This document shows positions 46,031-56,950 of a stretch of 64,000 bases of DNA, piece after piece. Positions within the stretch are counted from its first letter, which is position 1. Each line of letters opens with the position of its first letter. Below the pieces are notes generated by a model. The model worked only from the letters and a program-made list of their open reading frames with translations, was not told the DNA's origin and made no database searches. The translations under genes were made by a program, and so were the position numbers. Source of the stretch: Brevibacillus ruminantium. Lineage in GTDB: Bacteria; Bacillota; Bacilli; Brevibacillales; Brevibacillaceae. The stretch covers positions 3,111,001-3,175,000 of the forward strand of contig NZ_CP098755.1 in the NCBI RefSeq assembly GCF_023746555.1, written 5' to 3'.

Positions 46031-46060
46031 AAAACAAACGCCGGACATTCGCCCGACGTT
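46031..46060 (-). terminator. Terminator of the nucleoside operon
   Basis: AACGCCGG (46037-46044) and CCGACGTT (46053-46060) form an 8-bp stem with one G-T pair; on the minus strand TGTTTTC follows. Confidence 0.8.
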
Positions 46061-51523: not shown

Positions 51524-51553
51524 ACATAAGTTCTTATGTGAGAATCATTATTG
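51524..51553. promoter_or_regulatory. Palindrome and Fur-box-like site upstream of fur
   Basis: ACATAAG (51524-51530) and CTTATGT (51533-51539) form a palindrome just before the fur -35. Directly next to it TGAGAATCATTATTG (51539-51553) matches the 7-1-7 Fur box (TGATAATnATTATCA) at 11 of 14 positions. This second part reaches into the spoIIM stop codon. Confidence 0.5.
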
Positions 51554-52177
51554 ATTAAGTACAATCTGCATCAGCTTGGGCGAGACATAGGACTCAAACG
51601 TCGCAGCCGCCGTAAGCACCAGCAGCATCGCGATTACGAGCACCGAATAGCCGATAAAATGGGACATGATGCCGTCGCGTTTGCTAAGCAGCCTTGTTTT
51701 AATCAAGCGGAGTGAGAAGGAAATTCCGCTGACACCTACGATGATGAGCGCGGGAACCACCAGCAGATTTTGCGGCAGCACCCCCATCAGCGCAAAGTTT
51801 ACCCCTTGCCATTGCAGTTGGTTCACCAGAAACCCGACGGTAAAGCCGATGACAACCCCTTTGAGAAAAAGCATCAGCAGGATCATCGGCAGCCCGATAA
51901 TTGACAGGCCCAACACCCACATGATTGCTACCGTTTTTGCATAGTAACCCAGCGACTGTTGAAAGTGCAGCGACGGCTCAGGAATCCCTTTTTCTCCCAA
52001 ACTGCTGAAAAAAAACTGCAGGAATCCGAACAAATCCTGTCTTTGCGAGAGTGGCAACGAGTTGACTATGACAGCACCAAATATAATCCCCATGGTGAAC
52101 AGGACGATGGTAAACCAGTATAGTGATTGGTGTTCTTTGGCATACACCTGGATTGTTTGTCCAATACGGCTTCGCAA
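51548..52177 (-). CDS. spoIIM: Stage II sporulation protein M
   Basis: Membrane protein of 209 residues with five or six hydrophobic segments; part of the SpoIID-SpoIIM-SpoIIP peptidoglycan machine that drives engulfment. Typical are the GFTVGFLVNQLQWQGVNF and GVLPQNLLVVPALI segments. The start is TTG 52177, 8 nt after GGGAGGCG. A sigma-E promoter is expected in the 57-bp gap upstream; GCATAGTT and CATAAGCT at suitable spacing on the minus strand are weak candidates. Confidence 0.93.
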   Translation of the reverse strand: MRSRIGQTIQVYAKEHQSLYWFTIVLFTMGIIFGAVIVNSLPLSQRQDLFGFLQFFFSSLGEKGIPEPSLHFQQSLGYYAKTVAIMWVLGLSIIGLPMILLMLFLKGVVIGFTVGFLVNQLQWQGVNFALMGVLPQNLLVVPALIIVGVSGISFSLRLIKTRLLSKRDGIMSHFIGYSVLVIAMLLVLTAAATFESYVSPKLMQIVLNQ

Positions 52178-52234: not shown

Positions 52235-53446
52235 CTATGCCTTGTCCTTTGGTTCGAGCACCTTGCCATACGTGCCGGCTCCACCTGCTTTCACCTCGAG
52301 CTTGCCCTCCCTGGCGAGCACAATCATCCCGGCAATGCGCTCTCCGGCTATCGCAGCCAGCTCGTTTTGACTTGTCCGGTGCAAAACAGACATCTCGGTG
52401 CCAAACTTCTGATACAGCTTCTCTTTTAGTTTGGGTCCAACCCCCGGAATAAACTCCAGCGGCACCTGCTCTACATAGGGCGGTCGATAGGCGGGATGAT
52501 CGCCGGGCGGCAAATCAGCCAGTTGTTCAATCCGCGCGGAAACACCGCGAACAACACGTTTGAAACCGCACTGTGGGCAGCGGCCTTCCGGGTCTGCAGG
52601 CAGGAGCGACTGACAGGATTGGCAGGCTGTTTGGTGGTATTTTCCAAGCTGAGGATGGAGGCCGTAGTTGACCTTCACCCCTCGCCCCGCCTCCCTTTTC
52701 AAGGCCATCACCCACTCCTGGAATGATCTCTCCCGCATGGTAATCATTTGATACTCTCGACCGATTTTGGCCAGGGAGTGCGCATCCGAGTTGGTTAAAA
52801 ACGTTTTGTCATGAAGCTCTGACAAACGGTCAGCCATCTCCGTATTGGCACTGAGCCCCAGCTCCACGGCATGGATCATTGCGGGATCAGCCACCTCTGC
52901 GAGTGAATCCGTACAGCTTCCGTACAACCCCTTGTGCGGTGTAAAAATATGTGCGGGAATGATAACCCCGTCCCAGGCAGCTACTGCCTCTTGCAGTTCT
53001 CGCAGCGTGGTGCGGATTCGCTGGGAACTGAGCTGGACGTTTTTACAGCGCTGAGAGAGCCAGTGGGTAAACTCCCGCATCCTTGCCAAATCCGGCAGAT
53101 AGCAGAGAAAATGGGCTTCTCCTCTGTTTTCCTCTTTGATCTCTACCTCGCAGCCGAGTATCAGCATCGTCTGTTTGTACAAAACTCCCCCGTCAGTGTG
53201 CGGGGTGACTTCCCCTTTTTGCATCAAAAGCTGAAGCTCTTCCTGTACCTCGGGCGAATGCGCGTCGATGATACCGATCATATCCATCCCTTTTCGCTCC
53301 GAAGCTTCTTCCAGGATGCAAGTCAAGGTCATGGATCGTGAAGCCGTGATTTTTACGGGTTTGCCGGTCATCGTGCCACCGACGTGAATATGAAGATCAC
53401 AGAAAAAGTCGGACAGCTTCTGATTACTTAGTTCCATAGAACTCAC
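52235..53446 (-). CDS. Endonuclease Q family PHP-domain protein
   Basis: Protein of about 400 residues: a PHP phosphoesterase domain (about 10-265, metal motif FCDLHIHVGG and later NSDAHS), a zinc ribbon with CQSC and CPQC (about 280-305), and a helix-hairpin-helix region (FIPGVGPKLKEKLYQKFG, near 345). This layout matches endonuclease Q (EndoQ), known from archaea and some Bacillales to nick DNA 5' of deoxyinosine or deoxyuridine. The start is GTG 53446 or ATG 53437. It overlaps nudF by 23 bp, so both are one transcript. Confidence 0.85.
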   Translation of the reverse strand: MSSMELSNQKLSDFFCDLHIHVGGTMTGKPVKITASRSMTLTCILEEASERKGMDMIGIIDAHSPEVQEELQLLMQKGEVTPHTDGGVLYKQTMLILGCEVEIKEENRGEAHFLCYLPDLARMREFTHWLSQRCKNVQLSSQRIRTTLRELQEAVAAWDGVIIPAHIFTPHKGLYGSCTDSLAEVADPAMIHAVELGLSANTEMADRLSELHDKTFLTNSDAHSLAKIGREYQMITMRERSFQEWVMALKREAGRGVKVNYGLHPQLGKYHQTACQSCQSLLPADPEGRCPQCGFKRVVRGVSARIEQLADLPPGDHPAYRPPYVEQVPLEFIPGVGPKLKEKLYQKFGTEMSVLHRTSQNELAAIAGERIAGMIVLAREGKLEVKAGGAGTYGKVLEPKDKA

Positions 53447-53990
53447 GACTCTCCCAGGCGAACAAGGCTACGACGGTTTTTGCATCTCCAATCTCCCCGC
53501 TGCGATGCAGCTCACGCGCTTCTTCCAAAGTCAGCTCAACGACATCCACGAACTCATCCTCATCCGGTTGGCTCTCCCCTTTTTTCAAACCGGTTGCTAC
53601 GAAGAGGTGCAGAAGCTCGTCCGCAAAACCGGGAGATGTGTAAAACAAGCTGAGATGGGTGAAGGTTTCGGCCTCGTATCCGGTCTCTTCCTTTAGCTCA
53701 CGTATGGCACAGGCAAGCGGTTCTTCTCCCGGCTCCAGCTTGCCAGCTGGCAATTCGACGATGGCCCGCTCCAACGGCTTGCGAAATTGGCGCACTGCGA
53801 CCAGCTTTCCTTCATCGGTCAAAGCCATGACAGCAACCGCCCCCTGATGATTGACAATTTCCCGCTTCGCCGTTTTTCCGTTGGGAAGCAGGACTTCATC
53901 GACACGAAGCTTGATTACTTTTCCTTCAAAAATCTGCTGGGTGGACAGTGTTTTTTCATATAGATGCTTGCTATCGTTCACGAGGATCAT
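53424..53990 (-). CDS. nudF: Nudix hydrolase, ADP-ribose pyrophosphatase
   Basis: Cytosolic Nudix enzyme of 188 residues. The Nudix box GX5EX7REUXEEXGU spans residues 83-105 (G83, E89, R97, E101, E102, G104). N-terminal swapped strands and TSPGFADELLHLF after the box are features of the ADP-ribose pyrophosphatase group. It overlaps the endonuclease Q-like gene. In B. subtilis nudF also lies near spoIIM and mciZ. Confidence 0.92.
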   Translation of the reverse strand: MILVNDSKHLYEKTLSTQQIFEGKVIKLRVDEVLLPNGKTAKREIVNHQGAVAVMALTDEGKLVAVRQFRKPLERAIVELPAGKLEPGEEPLACAIRELKEETGYEAETFTHLSLFYTSPGFADELLHLFVATGLKKGESQPDEDEFVDVVELTLEEARELHRSGEIGDAKTVVALFAWESREFYGTK

Positions 53991-54088
53991 CCTTTTTCGA
54001 TTTTATGGCTGGTTCTAAACAAGCCGCGCCCTCCATATGCTGGGAGCAAGAGACTTGTCCACCATCATTGTATCGGAGGAGATGGCAG

Positions 54089-54229
54089 ATGAAAACCTAT
54101 GTAGGTGAAAAGCAGTTGCGCATGGTCGGAAAAGCCTGGGAAATTCGGGCTACGCTCCGCTCCTGGTCAAAAAAAGACCTAACGCTGCAAGAATATCTGG
54201 CGCGGAGAAGCAAGCCTGGCCGTCATTAG
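54089..54229 (+). CDS. mciZ: Mother-cell inhibitor of FtsZ, MciZ
   Basis: A 46-residue peptide encoded from ATG 54089, 8 nt after GGAGGAGA. Residues 13-21 read VGKAWEIRA, the same as the core of B. subtilis MciZ as I remember it; the known peptide is 40 residues and caps FtsZ filaments in the sporulating mother cell. The C-terminal part (LTLQEYLARRS) corresponds to the second helix region, with a few extra residues. It is divergent from nudF, as expected for this locus. The last 80 bp overlap the DUF3866 gene tail-to-tail. Sigma-E control is known for B. subtilis; no clear promoter is readable here. Confidence 0.85.
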   Translation: MKTYVGEKQLRMVGKAWEIRATLRSWSKKDLTLQEYLARRSKPGRH

Positions 54230-55337
54230 ACTTTTCTTTTAGAAACGCGATGCATTGGGCAGCAAGTCGTCCTGCCAACACGGCAGCCTGAAAAGGAGAG
54301 GGATCTTGGCGCCAGTTTCTGCCCATCGTGGAAAAATGCAGACTGTACTTCCTTTCGAGGACTTCCAGCTCTGTCTCAATGGGAGCCGGTTGAGGCAAGA
54401 GGAGATGTGCGGTCTGCTGATCGATTCCCTTCAGTTGCGCAGAAATATGAATGTCCCGTTCATCGTTCCAAATCGGGAGAGGCAGTAAAACGGGACGAAG
54501 CGTAAATCTTTTCAACAGCGTGACCGTATGATGGCTCACGCCCAGATGACGCTCCCGCGGGTCCGAAAAGCTGATGCGCGGGATAAAAAAGGGAGTGCCT
54601 CCCAGCAAGCTCGTCGCATGGATCACTTCGGCCAGCTCCATGCCGGAAAATCCGAACGGTGTACCTGTACCAGCCACACCCGGTCCCAATATGCACAGAA
54701 TGATGTCTGCTTTTGCCACCAGACGAGCCGCGAGCAATCCGGTGTGAATCGTGATGCTTTCCCACTCTCCCCCCCACGCATGTCCCGTGGTGATCGTGTT
54801 GTTTACGATTCCCTTTTTTTGTAGATGATCTACCTGATGGCTGAGACCGAGTGGAAGCGAAGCGGCGTCGGGCATCACATATACGACCTGCAGGTGGGGT
54901 GCCGCGTGCTTAATAGCAGCCGCGACAGCCGGCAGCATGCTGTGAAGCTCTCCAATTACGACTGGCGTACCTGATAAAGAGGCCTCTTCGTCGAGAAAGA
55001 GAGCATGGTACGGACTTTGCTGTTCTTCCACTGCATCTACGGCGATCTGCCACGGGGAGTAGCGCATTTTGACCGCATGTCCCCAAACGCTGGGATACAC
55101 ATCTGCCCCGCTCGTCCCGCCGCATTTTCCGACGACGATATGATACCCGCCTGTGCCAAGCTGAAGGCGAACAGCGGTCGTATTCAGCAACAGTACATCC
55201 CCCTCCTGATACTGCTCCCTCGCATAGGAGATTGCCTGTTCAATCAGACCGCTGCCAGGGATCAGCACCTCCACTACTTGCATACTCTGGTTCTGTTTGA
55301 CTATTTTTTTTACAACTCCGAACTCCAGGCGTAGCAA
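54150..55337 (-). CDS. DUF3866 family protein
   Basis: Protein of 395 residues without signal or membrane helices. It matches the DUF3866 family as far as I recognise it: a conserved beginning (LEFGVVKKIV, then AISYAREQYQEGDVLLLNTTAV shown in part) and a central ILGPGVAGTGTPFGFSGME with DP...HLGVSHHT later. Function unknown. The 3' end overlaps mciZ by 80 bp on the other strand. The ribosome site and start are plausible (ATG 55337 after GGGGGG), but an upstream GTG cannot be excluded. Confidence 0.75.
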   Translation of the reverse strand: MLRLEFGVVKKIVKQNQSMQVVEVLIPGSGLIEQAISYAREQYQEGDVLLLNTTAVRLQLGTGGYHIVVGKCGGTSGADVYPSVWGHAVKMRYSPWQIAVDAVEEQQSPYHALFLDEEASLSGTPVVIGELHSMLPAVAAAIKHAAPHLQVVYVMPDAASLPLGLSHQVDHLQKKGIVNNTITTGHAWGGEWESITIHTGLLAARLVAKADIILCILGPGVAGTGTPFGFSGMELAEVIHATSLLGGTPFFIPRISFSDPRERHLGVSHHTVTLLKRFTLRPVLLPLPIWNDERDIHISAQLKGIDQQTAHLLLPQPAPIETELEVLERKYSLHFSTMGRNWRQDPSPFQAAVLAGRLAAQCIAFLKEKSNDGQACFSAPDILAALGLFLTRSGA

Positions 55338-55603: not shown

Positions 55604-55637
55604 CAAAAAAAGAACCGGACACCCAAAGGCGCCCGGT
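55604..55637 (-). terminator. Terminator of the M20 peptidase gene
   Basis: ACCGGACACC (55614-55623) and GGCGCCCGGT (55628-55637), stem with one G-T and one mismatch; on the minus strand TCTTTTTTTG follows. Confidence 0.85.
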
Positions 55638-55710
55638 CCCAACGATCTTCTGTTTTTTTGTAAAAACTGCACGCGCATTTGCAAAGACATGCGGTTCTCA
55701 AAAACGCCTG

Positions 55711-56826
55711 TTATTCCAGTACCTCTGCAATCACAGCCAGCACCAATTCTGCTGCCTTGTTCAGCTCGGCAATCGGCATGCGTTCATTTTTGGTATGAAT
55801 CTCTTCATAGCCGATGGCAAAGTTCACGCTTGGAACCCCATAGCCATTAAAGACATTCCCGTCGCTGCCCCCGCCGCTGGACACCAGCTCAGGGTTGCGG
55901 CCGATACGCTTTACTGCTCCAATCGCCTTTTTCACGACAGGCGTCTCTTCGTTATATTTATAACCGTGGTACATAAAGATCACTTCATTTTCGCAGCTTC
56001 CTCCCATTTCGGCAGCCGCTTCTTCAAATGCTGTCGTCATGGTTTTTACCTGCGCTTCCAGTTTGTCCATCACGAGGCTGCGTGCCTCAGACCAAACCTC
56101 GACGTAATCGGTTACGATATTGTAAGCCTTGCCGCCCTCAAATTTCCCGATATTGGCCGTCGTATCAGAATCGATACGTCCCAGCGGCATGCGGGCAATT
56201 GCTTTGCTGGCAATGGTGATGGCACTCACGCCATCTTCCGGATTAACTCCAGCATGCGCGGCTTTTCCGTGAATTTTGGTAACGATCCGATACTGTCCTG
56301 CCCCTGCTGAAGTAATGATGCCTACTGGACCGTCGGAGTCAAGGATGAAGCCCATTTCTGCTTTCAGCAGACTGGCATCCATCGCACGCGAGCCTACCAG
56401 TCCTGATTCTTCTCCAACTGTCAGCACGACCTGAATGGTTGGATGCGGCAGATTTTGCTCTTTCAGAGTGCGAATCCCTTCAAAAATGGCGGCAATGCCT
56501 GCTTTATCATCTGCACCGAGAATCGTGGTTCCATCTGAATAGACGTAGCCGTCGCGCACCTGCGGCTTGATGCCATTGCCGGGAACGACTGTGTCCATAT
56601 GACTGCTGAAGAGAATCGTCGGTCCTTTCGCATTTCCTTCCAGCGTAGCGATCAGGTTATTACCGCCATGTCCTGTTTTGGCGGCCGCGTCGTCTTCCTC
56701 CACCGTAAAGCCCATTTCCGTCAGTTTTTCTTTCAACACCTTGTTGATTTGCGCTTCGTTTTTGGTTTCGCTGTCGATTTGGACGAGCTCCAAAAACTCG
56801 CTAAGCAAACGCTCCTCGTTGATCAC
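55711..56826 (-). CDS. M20/M25 family metallopeptidase (YqjE-like, peptidase T-like)
   Basis: Cytosolic zinc aminopeptidase-like protein of 371 residues, the same length as B. subtilis YqjE. The start is GTG 56826 (MINEERLL), 7 nt after AAGGAGGA. Metal ligands and catalytic residues: H76 in SSHMDT, D106 in GADDKAG, E139/E140 in GEESG, and a late histidine in YEEIHTKNE. Residues about 185-290 form the dimerisation (lid) domain. It follows the carboxyltransferase gene, as yqjE follows yqjD in B. subtilis, but a terminator lies between. Confidence 0.9.
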   Translation of the reverse strand: MINEERLLSEFLELVQIDSETKNEAQINKVLKEKLTEMGFTVEEDDAAAKTGHGGNNLIATLEGNAKGPTILFSSHMDTVVPGNGIKPQVRDGYVYSDGTTILGADDKAGIAAIFEGIRTLKEQNLPHPTIQVVLTVGEESGLVGSRAMDASLLKAEMGFILDSDGPVGIITSAGAGQYRIVTKIHGKAAHAGVNPEDGVSAITIASKAIARMPLGRIDSDTTANIGKFEGGKAYNIVTDYVEVWSEARSLVMDKLEAQVKTMTTAFEEAAAEMGGSCENEVIFMYHGYKYNEETPVVKKAIGAVKRIGRNPELVSSGGGSDGNVFNGYGVPSVNFAIGYEEIHTKNERMPIAELNKAAELVLAVIAEVLE

Positions 56827-56950
56827 GCTGACTCCTCCTTGGAAAACGTAATTCTTCAGTCTGGCATACTGATGTGGCCTTTTTTGACAATATGCCAAGG
56901 CGAAAGGTATGTATCACAAAAACAAGCGTTAATCCGCAAAAGGCCACATA

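Follow-up and report, generated by a model that had tools for sequence, protein, structure and literature searches.

An mciZ gene overlapping a DUF3866 gene tail to tail in Brevibacillus ruminantium, and MciZ-like peptides at the same locus in Clostridia-type genomes

MciZ of Bacillus subtilis is a peptide that is expressed under the control of sigma-E and caps the minus ends of FtsZ filaments, its beta-hairpin joining the FtsZ sheet (PMC7430163; PMC4929429); chain J of PDB entry 4u39 is the MciZ chain of the FtsZ:MciZ complex. The papers we consulted describe MciZ only in Bacillus and draw no connection to Clostridia, although the Pfam/InterPro species lists may already include clostridial members. 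A second described system that bears on the present locus is the noncontiguous operon, which has been defined with the menE-menC-MW1733-ytkD-MW1731 genes of Staphylococcus aureus as an example (PMC7154746). Here we analyze a 64,000-nucleotide stretch of the B. ruminantium genome (contig NZ_CP098755.1, positions 3,111,001 to 3,175,000; hereafter the window), in which an earlier note, made from the sequence alone, had assigned a 46-codon open reading frame (ORF) to mciZ.

The ORF occupies positions 54089–54229 on the plus strand, begins with ATG, ends with TAG and encodes the 46-residue peptide MKTYVGEKQLRMVGKAWEIRATLRSWSKKDLTLQEYLARRSKPGRH. Comparison of this peptide with the Pfam model for MciZ (PF13072) gave 39 bits (E 6.8e-10) against a curated cut-off of 22.2, which places it in the family, and a search of PDB sequences matched it to the MciZ chains 2mrw and 4u39; NCBIfam gave no match for it. 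The AlphaFold model of the peptide has the order strand-strand-helix-helix (strands at residues 2–5 and 10–13, helices at 16–27 and 33–40), thus containing a beta-hairpin and helix as in the FtsZ complex, and its best match in the PDB is 4u39_J (TM 0.76 by target, 1.6 Å). For the two peptide models we built, Foldseek gave weak E-values (0.48 and 1.2), which is not surprising for queries of 40 residues. The ORF is preceded by a Shine-Dalgarno sequence, GGAGGAG, at 54075–54081, 7 nt before the ATG, which shows almost no variation over 26 species of the genus and bears out the strong ribosome site that had been proposed. Adjoining mciZ and divergent from it, the position expected of an MciZ locus, is a gene for a nudF-like Nudix hydrolase (53424–53990, minus strand; PF00293, E 1.4e-21); nudF adjoins mciZ in all 42 loci that we compared first, as well as in the Bacillus-type loci examined. 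The mciZ gene is present in a single copy in each of 26 Brevibacillus-genus genomes, and the genome of B. ruminantium encodes FtsZ once. Taken together, the profile match, the predicted fold and the conserved locus confirm that 54089–54229 is a genuine mciZ, a member of the known family.

Upstream of mciZ lies a putative promoter of the sigma-E type, TTCTA-N16-CATATGCT (54013–54041, plus strand), which is conserved in the genus. Genome-wide, the TTCTA-CATA pattern has 16 matches compared to 26 for a reversed control, and because it is not enriched the case for a promoter comes only from placement before sporulation genes: other sites with the pattern precede spoIVA, spoIIP, spoIID, a ylxY-like deacetylase gene, a gene for a gerR/RsfA-family regulator and a YkwD-like gene. 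Sigma-E of B. subtilis controls spoIID, spoIIP, spoIVA and ylbO/gerR (PMC517825). We therefore consider it likely that the putative mciZ promoter is of the sigma-E type. The form TTCTA-N15-17-CATANNNT found before spoIVA, spoIIP, spoIID and other sporulation genes (L046–L058) could seed a sigma-E motif for Brevibacillus. If the peptide acts as it does in B. subtilis, sigma-E would transcribe mciZ in the mother cell after asymmetric division, the beta-hairpin would join the C-terminal sheet of FtsZ, and filament minus ends would be capped, so that further Z-rings would be prevented.

Convergent with mciZ is a DUF3866 gene (54150–55337, minus strand; PF12982, E 7e-110), and the two genes overlap tail to tail by 80 nt, exactly at 54150–54229 as the earlier note had it, with both stop codons inside the overlap. 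The closest relatives of this DUF3866 come almost entirely from named Brevibacillus species, which puts the window in Brevibacillus broadly defined. What that note called the 3′ third of mciZ is in fact 57% of the ORF (80 of 141 nt), namely codons 21–46 and the stop codon. The VGKAWEIRA core is situated almost entirely upstream of the overlap, and on the other strand the antisense codons and stop of DUF3866 (54150–54229) follow its Pfam domain, whose last residue is 356. First codon positions of the two frames stand opposite each other, and the mciZ wobble position stands opposite the second position of the DUF3866 codon. The gene order nudF (minus), mciZ (plus), DUF3866 (minus) is kept in 26 of 26 Brevibacillus-genus genomes together with the overlap, whose phase is identical throughout and whose length is 80–86 nt, with a single case of 116 nt. 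Five more members of the family, from three other genera (L029–L033), also have an 80-nt overlap in the same phase; the 3′ half of mciZ was already antisense to the DUF3866 tail before the genus diverged. Outside these genera the overlap varies in length and phase or is absent, with the qualification that the DUF3866 end at L037 and a few divergent loci is unreliable, having been extended from BLAST ends, and in Bacillus-type genomes mciZ is present without an adjoining DUF3866. Two loci stand apart. In B. reuszeri NIT02 (L117, the same locus as L005) the usual mciZ stop is lost, giving a peptide of 56 residues and the overlap of 116 nt; in B. dissolubilis (L126) DUF3866 stops 24 residues past its TMGR motif and overlaps mciZ by 4 nt, which provides a natural tail-less comparison.

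Because the mciZ wobble position faces the second codon position of DUF3866, changes that are synonymous in mciZ are mostly replacements in DUF3866. Codon 31 of mciZ (CTA, 54179–54181) ends in A in 26 of 26 species even though its residue varies among Leu, Val and Ala, and CTA makes up 3.6% of the Leu codons in flanking genes; this wobble A keeps a Leu codon in DUF3866. Similarly, Q34 is CAA in 26 of 26 species, and codon 9 is mixed. The constancy at codons 31 and 34 means that Leu residues are kept in the extended DUF3866 tail, which has the pattern LxxLxL[FY]LTR in the genus. We compared the observed sequences with a column-transplant null, in which the mciZ residues are kept and codon columns for the same amino acid are drawn from flanking genes. 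Under this null an internal stop arose in the DUF3866 tail in a mean of 10.2 of 26 species, and 1.75% of draws were stop-free, compared to the 0 of 26 species with a stop that we observe; the observed similarity of the tails was surpassed in 0.95% of draws, a figure that becomes just borderline (about 0.09) among the 35 stop-free draws. A test of mean wobble constraint, however, did not separate the overlap from the rest of mciZ, the non-overlapping part being equally constrained, so that average wobble conservation alone is no proof of selection on DUF3866. The proposed double constraint on the shared bases is thus sustained, to a moderate degree, by the codon pattern at specific positions and not by the mean. 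We consider it probable that selection is dual and acts on the DUF3866 tail as well.

An ORF this short, with more than half its length antisense to a coding gene, might be there by chance, or might be conserved as a by-product of the DUF3866 frame. We regard this as having next to no probability, given the match to a curated profile and the retention of mciZ in relatives with a 4-nt overlap or none and in those Bacillus-type genomes where DUF3866 does not adjoin it. It is already refuted by the distribution of conservation in mciZ, which is highest in codons 1–20, outside the overlap; the earlier note had named conservation no greater than the DUF3866 frame requires as what would speak against the gene. 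A different possibility, doubtful but deserving more weight, is that the overlap is neutral, compaction or loss of a stop codon having run DUF3866 into mciZ so that the tail is simply what mciZ allows. The tail past the TMGR motif comprises 22–50 residues in clostridial relatives and 53–59 residues at the Brevibacillus loci with overlaps of 80–116 nt, and this spread, like the short tail of B. dissolubilis and the variable overlap outside the genus, fits with neutrality; the stop-free tail in all 26 species, reached in so few null draws, and the invariant wobble A at codon 31 do not.

The overlap might instead be regulatory. Transcripts of DUF3866, which may continue through nudF and the PHP gene to spoIIM, and the sigma-E transcript of mciZ would then interfere with or anneal to one another, and the inverted mciZ would be part of a noncontiguous operon by which vegetative expression is kept apart from expression in the mother cell. 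In line with this idea, mciZ-like genes are found between co-directional DUF3866 and nudF genes across Bacilli and Clostridia. In 59 DUF3866–nudF loci we measured the distance between the DUF3866 stop codon and the beginning of the match to nudF. The 38 loci that have an MciZ-like ORF all show 149 nt or more, and the 21 that lack one show a median of 29 nt and a maximum of 103 nt; this clean split indicates that mciZ lies in reverse orientation within genes that are otherwise closely packed on one strand. In addition, no terminator-like site was found on their strand between DUF3866 and nudF in any of the 26 species, but shuffled controls at that stringency have almost none either, so their absence says little. 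Against a regulatory role stand the shortening or loss of the coding overlap in several relatives, the occurrence of mciZ without DUF3866 in Bacillus-type genomes, and a site that could drive nudF separately: a sigma-70-like TTTTCA-N17-TACAAT at 54095–54067 (minus strand), which points toward nudF and overlaps the ribosome site and first codons of mciZ. We think it unlikely that regulation explains the overlap, although the antisense idea of the earlier note is, in its wider noncontiguous-operon form, a sensible hypothesis. The most likely origin of the overlap is an extension of the C-terminal tail of DUF3866 into mciZ, and the upkeep of the overlap would be due in part to mild selection on the extended tail itself, an antisense-RNA switch not being the main cause. 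We are highly confident in the combined explanation in which 54089–54229 is mciZ, overlapped through extension of the DUF3866 tail, with a divergent clostridial branch and, as inferred, a role like that in B. subtilis.

The surprise of the analysis is the reach of the MciZ family beyond Bacilli. Between DUF3866 and nudF in Clostridia-type genomes we found short antisense ORFs, mostly of 38–47 residues, whose products resemble MciZ and mostly fall under the Pfam cut-off (L139, L163, L164, L166, L172, L175, L181 and L188–L307). Profiles built from 7 of these peptides (A2) and from 36 (A4) were aligned with Bacilli MciZ by hhalign with probabilities of 95.9 (E 5.7e-9) and 97.9 (E 4.4e-13), respectively. 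We then searched 398 genomes of the phylum with A4 by sequence only, making no use of synteny. There were matches in 101 genomes, one in each, from 72 genera, including the true MciZ sites of two Bacillus-type genomes; some of the 36 members of A4 had been collected from the same genome sample, but 69 further matches had not been among them. We examined the surroundings of all 99 matches outside Bacilli, and 98 of these adjoin DUF3866, nudF, the PHP gene or spoIIM in matching orientation, whereas the sole off-locus match (G397) is recognized by the Pfam model itself. The PF13072 model found 15 of the 398 genomes, 11 of them outside Bacilli (one with an in-frame stop), and in genomes matched by both models the same ORF was chosen. 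Since most of the clostridial branch is missed at the PF13072 cut-off, we label these peptides MciZ-like and do not file them in that family. That small genes are easily missed in annotation, as had been remarked of the window mciZ, is truer of these homologues than of mciZ itself, which Pfam detects.

A template-free AlphaFold model of one such peptide (L181, Desulfitobacteriaceae) has 4u39_J as its best match in the PDB (TM 0.84 by target, 1.1 Å, probability 0.93), and profile comparison, fold and synteny agree on homology of the clostridial branch to MciZ. Upstream of the genes, CATANNNT, which resembles the −10 element recognized by mother-cell sigma factors, is present at a distance of 17–60 nt in 22 of 31 loci, compared to 3.4 in shuffles, and also in further clostridial sets (13 of 20 and 32 of 50 loci). 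A spoIVA match is present in 100 of the 101 A4-positive genomes, compared to 336 of the 398 overall (Fisher p 5.7e-8, with kinship ignored); the sole MciZ-like genome without one (G350:C276:19401-19526, L280) is 97% complete and may have either a loss or an assembly gap. Sequence and model comparisons thus indicate that the MciZ family extends beyond Bacilli, and that numerous Clostridia-type spore-formers encode a divergent branch of it, antisense and at the corresponding place. By inference, the clostridial peptides would also inhibit FtsZ.

In the window, the minus-strand run in which mciZ is inverted consists of DUF3866, nudF, a gene for a TIGR00375-like PHP-domain protein (52235–53446; PHP_C 28.8 bits, above its cut-off, with 282.7 bits for TIGR00375, under the cut-off of 326.6), spoIIM (51548–52177; TIGR02831, 199 bits, cut-off 100.2) and fur. 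The nearest terminator-like sites on this strand are at 46037–46060 and, upstream of DUF3866, at 55611–55640, where a strong hairpin and T-run lie between DUF3866 and a PepT-like peptidase gene (55711–56898); this hairpin suggests that DUF3866 may be the first gene of its unit. At the sigma-70-like site, which could be a promoter of nudF's own, the block ATTGTATCGGAGG is nearly invariant in the 26 species and may serve both mciZ and nudF. An opposite-strand gene between co-directional genes is the layout of a noncontiguous operon, and mciZ is a candidate for membership of one. More speculative, and in our judgment improbable, is the proposal that MciZ is an ancient, Bacillota-wide inhibitor of division in sporulation, inverted in a DUF3866-nudF-(PHP)-spoIIM operon such that transcription of the operon and sigma-E transcription of mciZ would be mutually exclusive, with DUF3866 tied to sporulation or division.

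The window thus contributes an MciZ identified with confidence, whose gene has a conserved antisense overlap, and DUF3866, a family of unknown function, is tied to a fixed neighborhood with mciZ, nudF and spoIIM. Should the clostridial peptides act alike, a block of division in the mother cell would belong to endospore formation in general, and approximately 70 more genera would offer natural peptide inhibitors of FtsZ for study.

Compared with the noncontiguous operon of S. aureus, the locus has the same arrangement of an opposite-strand gene between co-directional genes; joint transcription of the flanking genes across mciZ, with reciprocal regulation, the other mark of such an operon, would be a prediction for this locus. 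Like B. subtilis MciZ (PF13072; 2mrw, 4u39), the window peptide has the VGKAWEIRA core, a length of about 40 residues and a beta-hairpin with a helix, and its gene is divergent from nudF and has a promoter, putative here, of the sigma-E type; unlike B. subtilis MciZ, it is 46 residues long with a longer C-terminus, and its gene overlaps a convergent DUF3866 gene. The clostridial peptides differ from the window MciZ in having no Trp after the Gly-Lys and a core of the GKVKDL type in place of GKAWEIR, but they share with it the locus, the orientation, the Gly-Lys core, the predicted fold and, in many loci, CATANNNT upstream.
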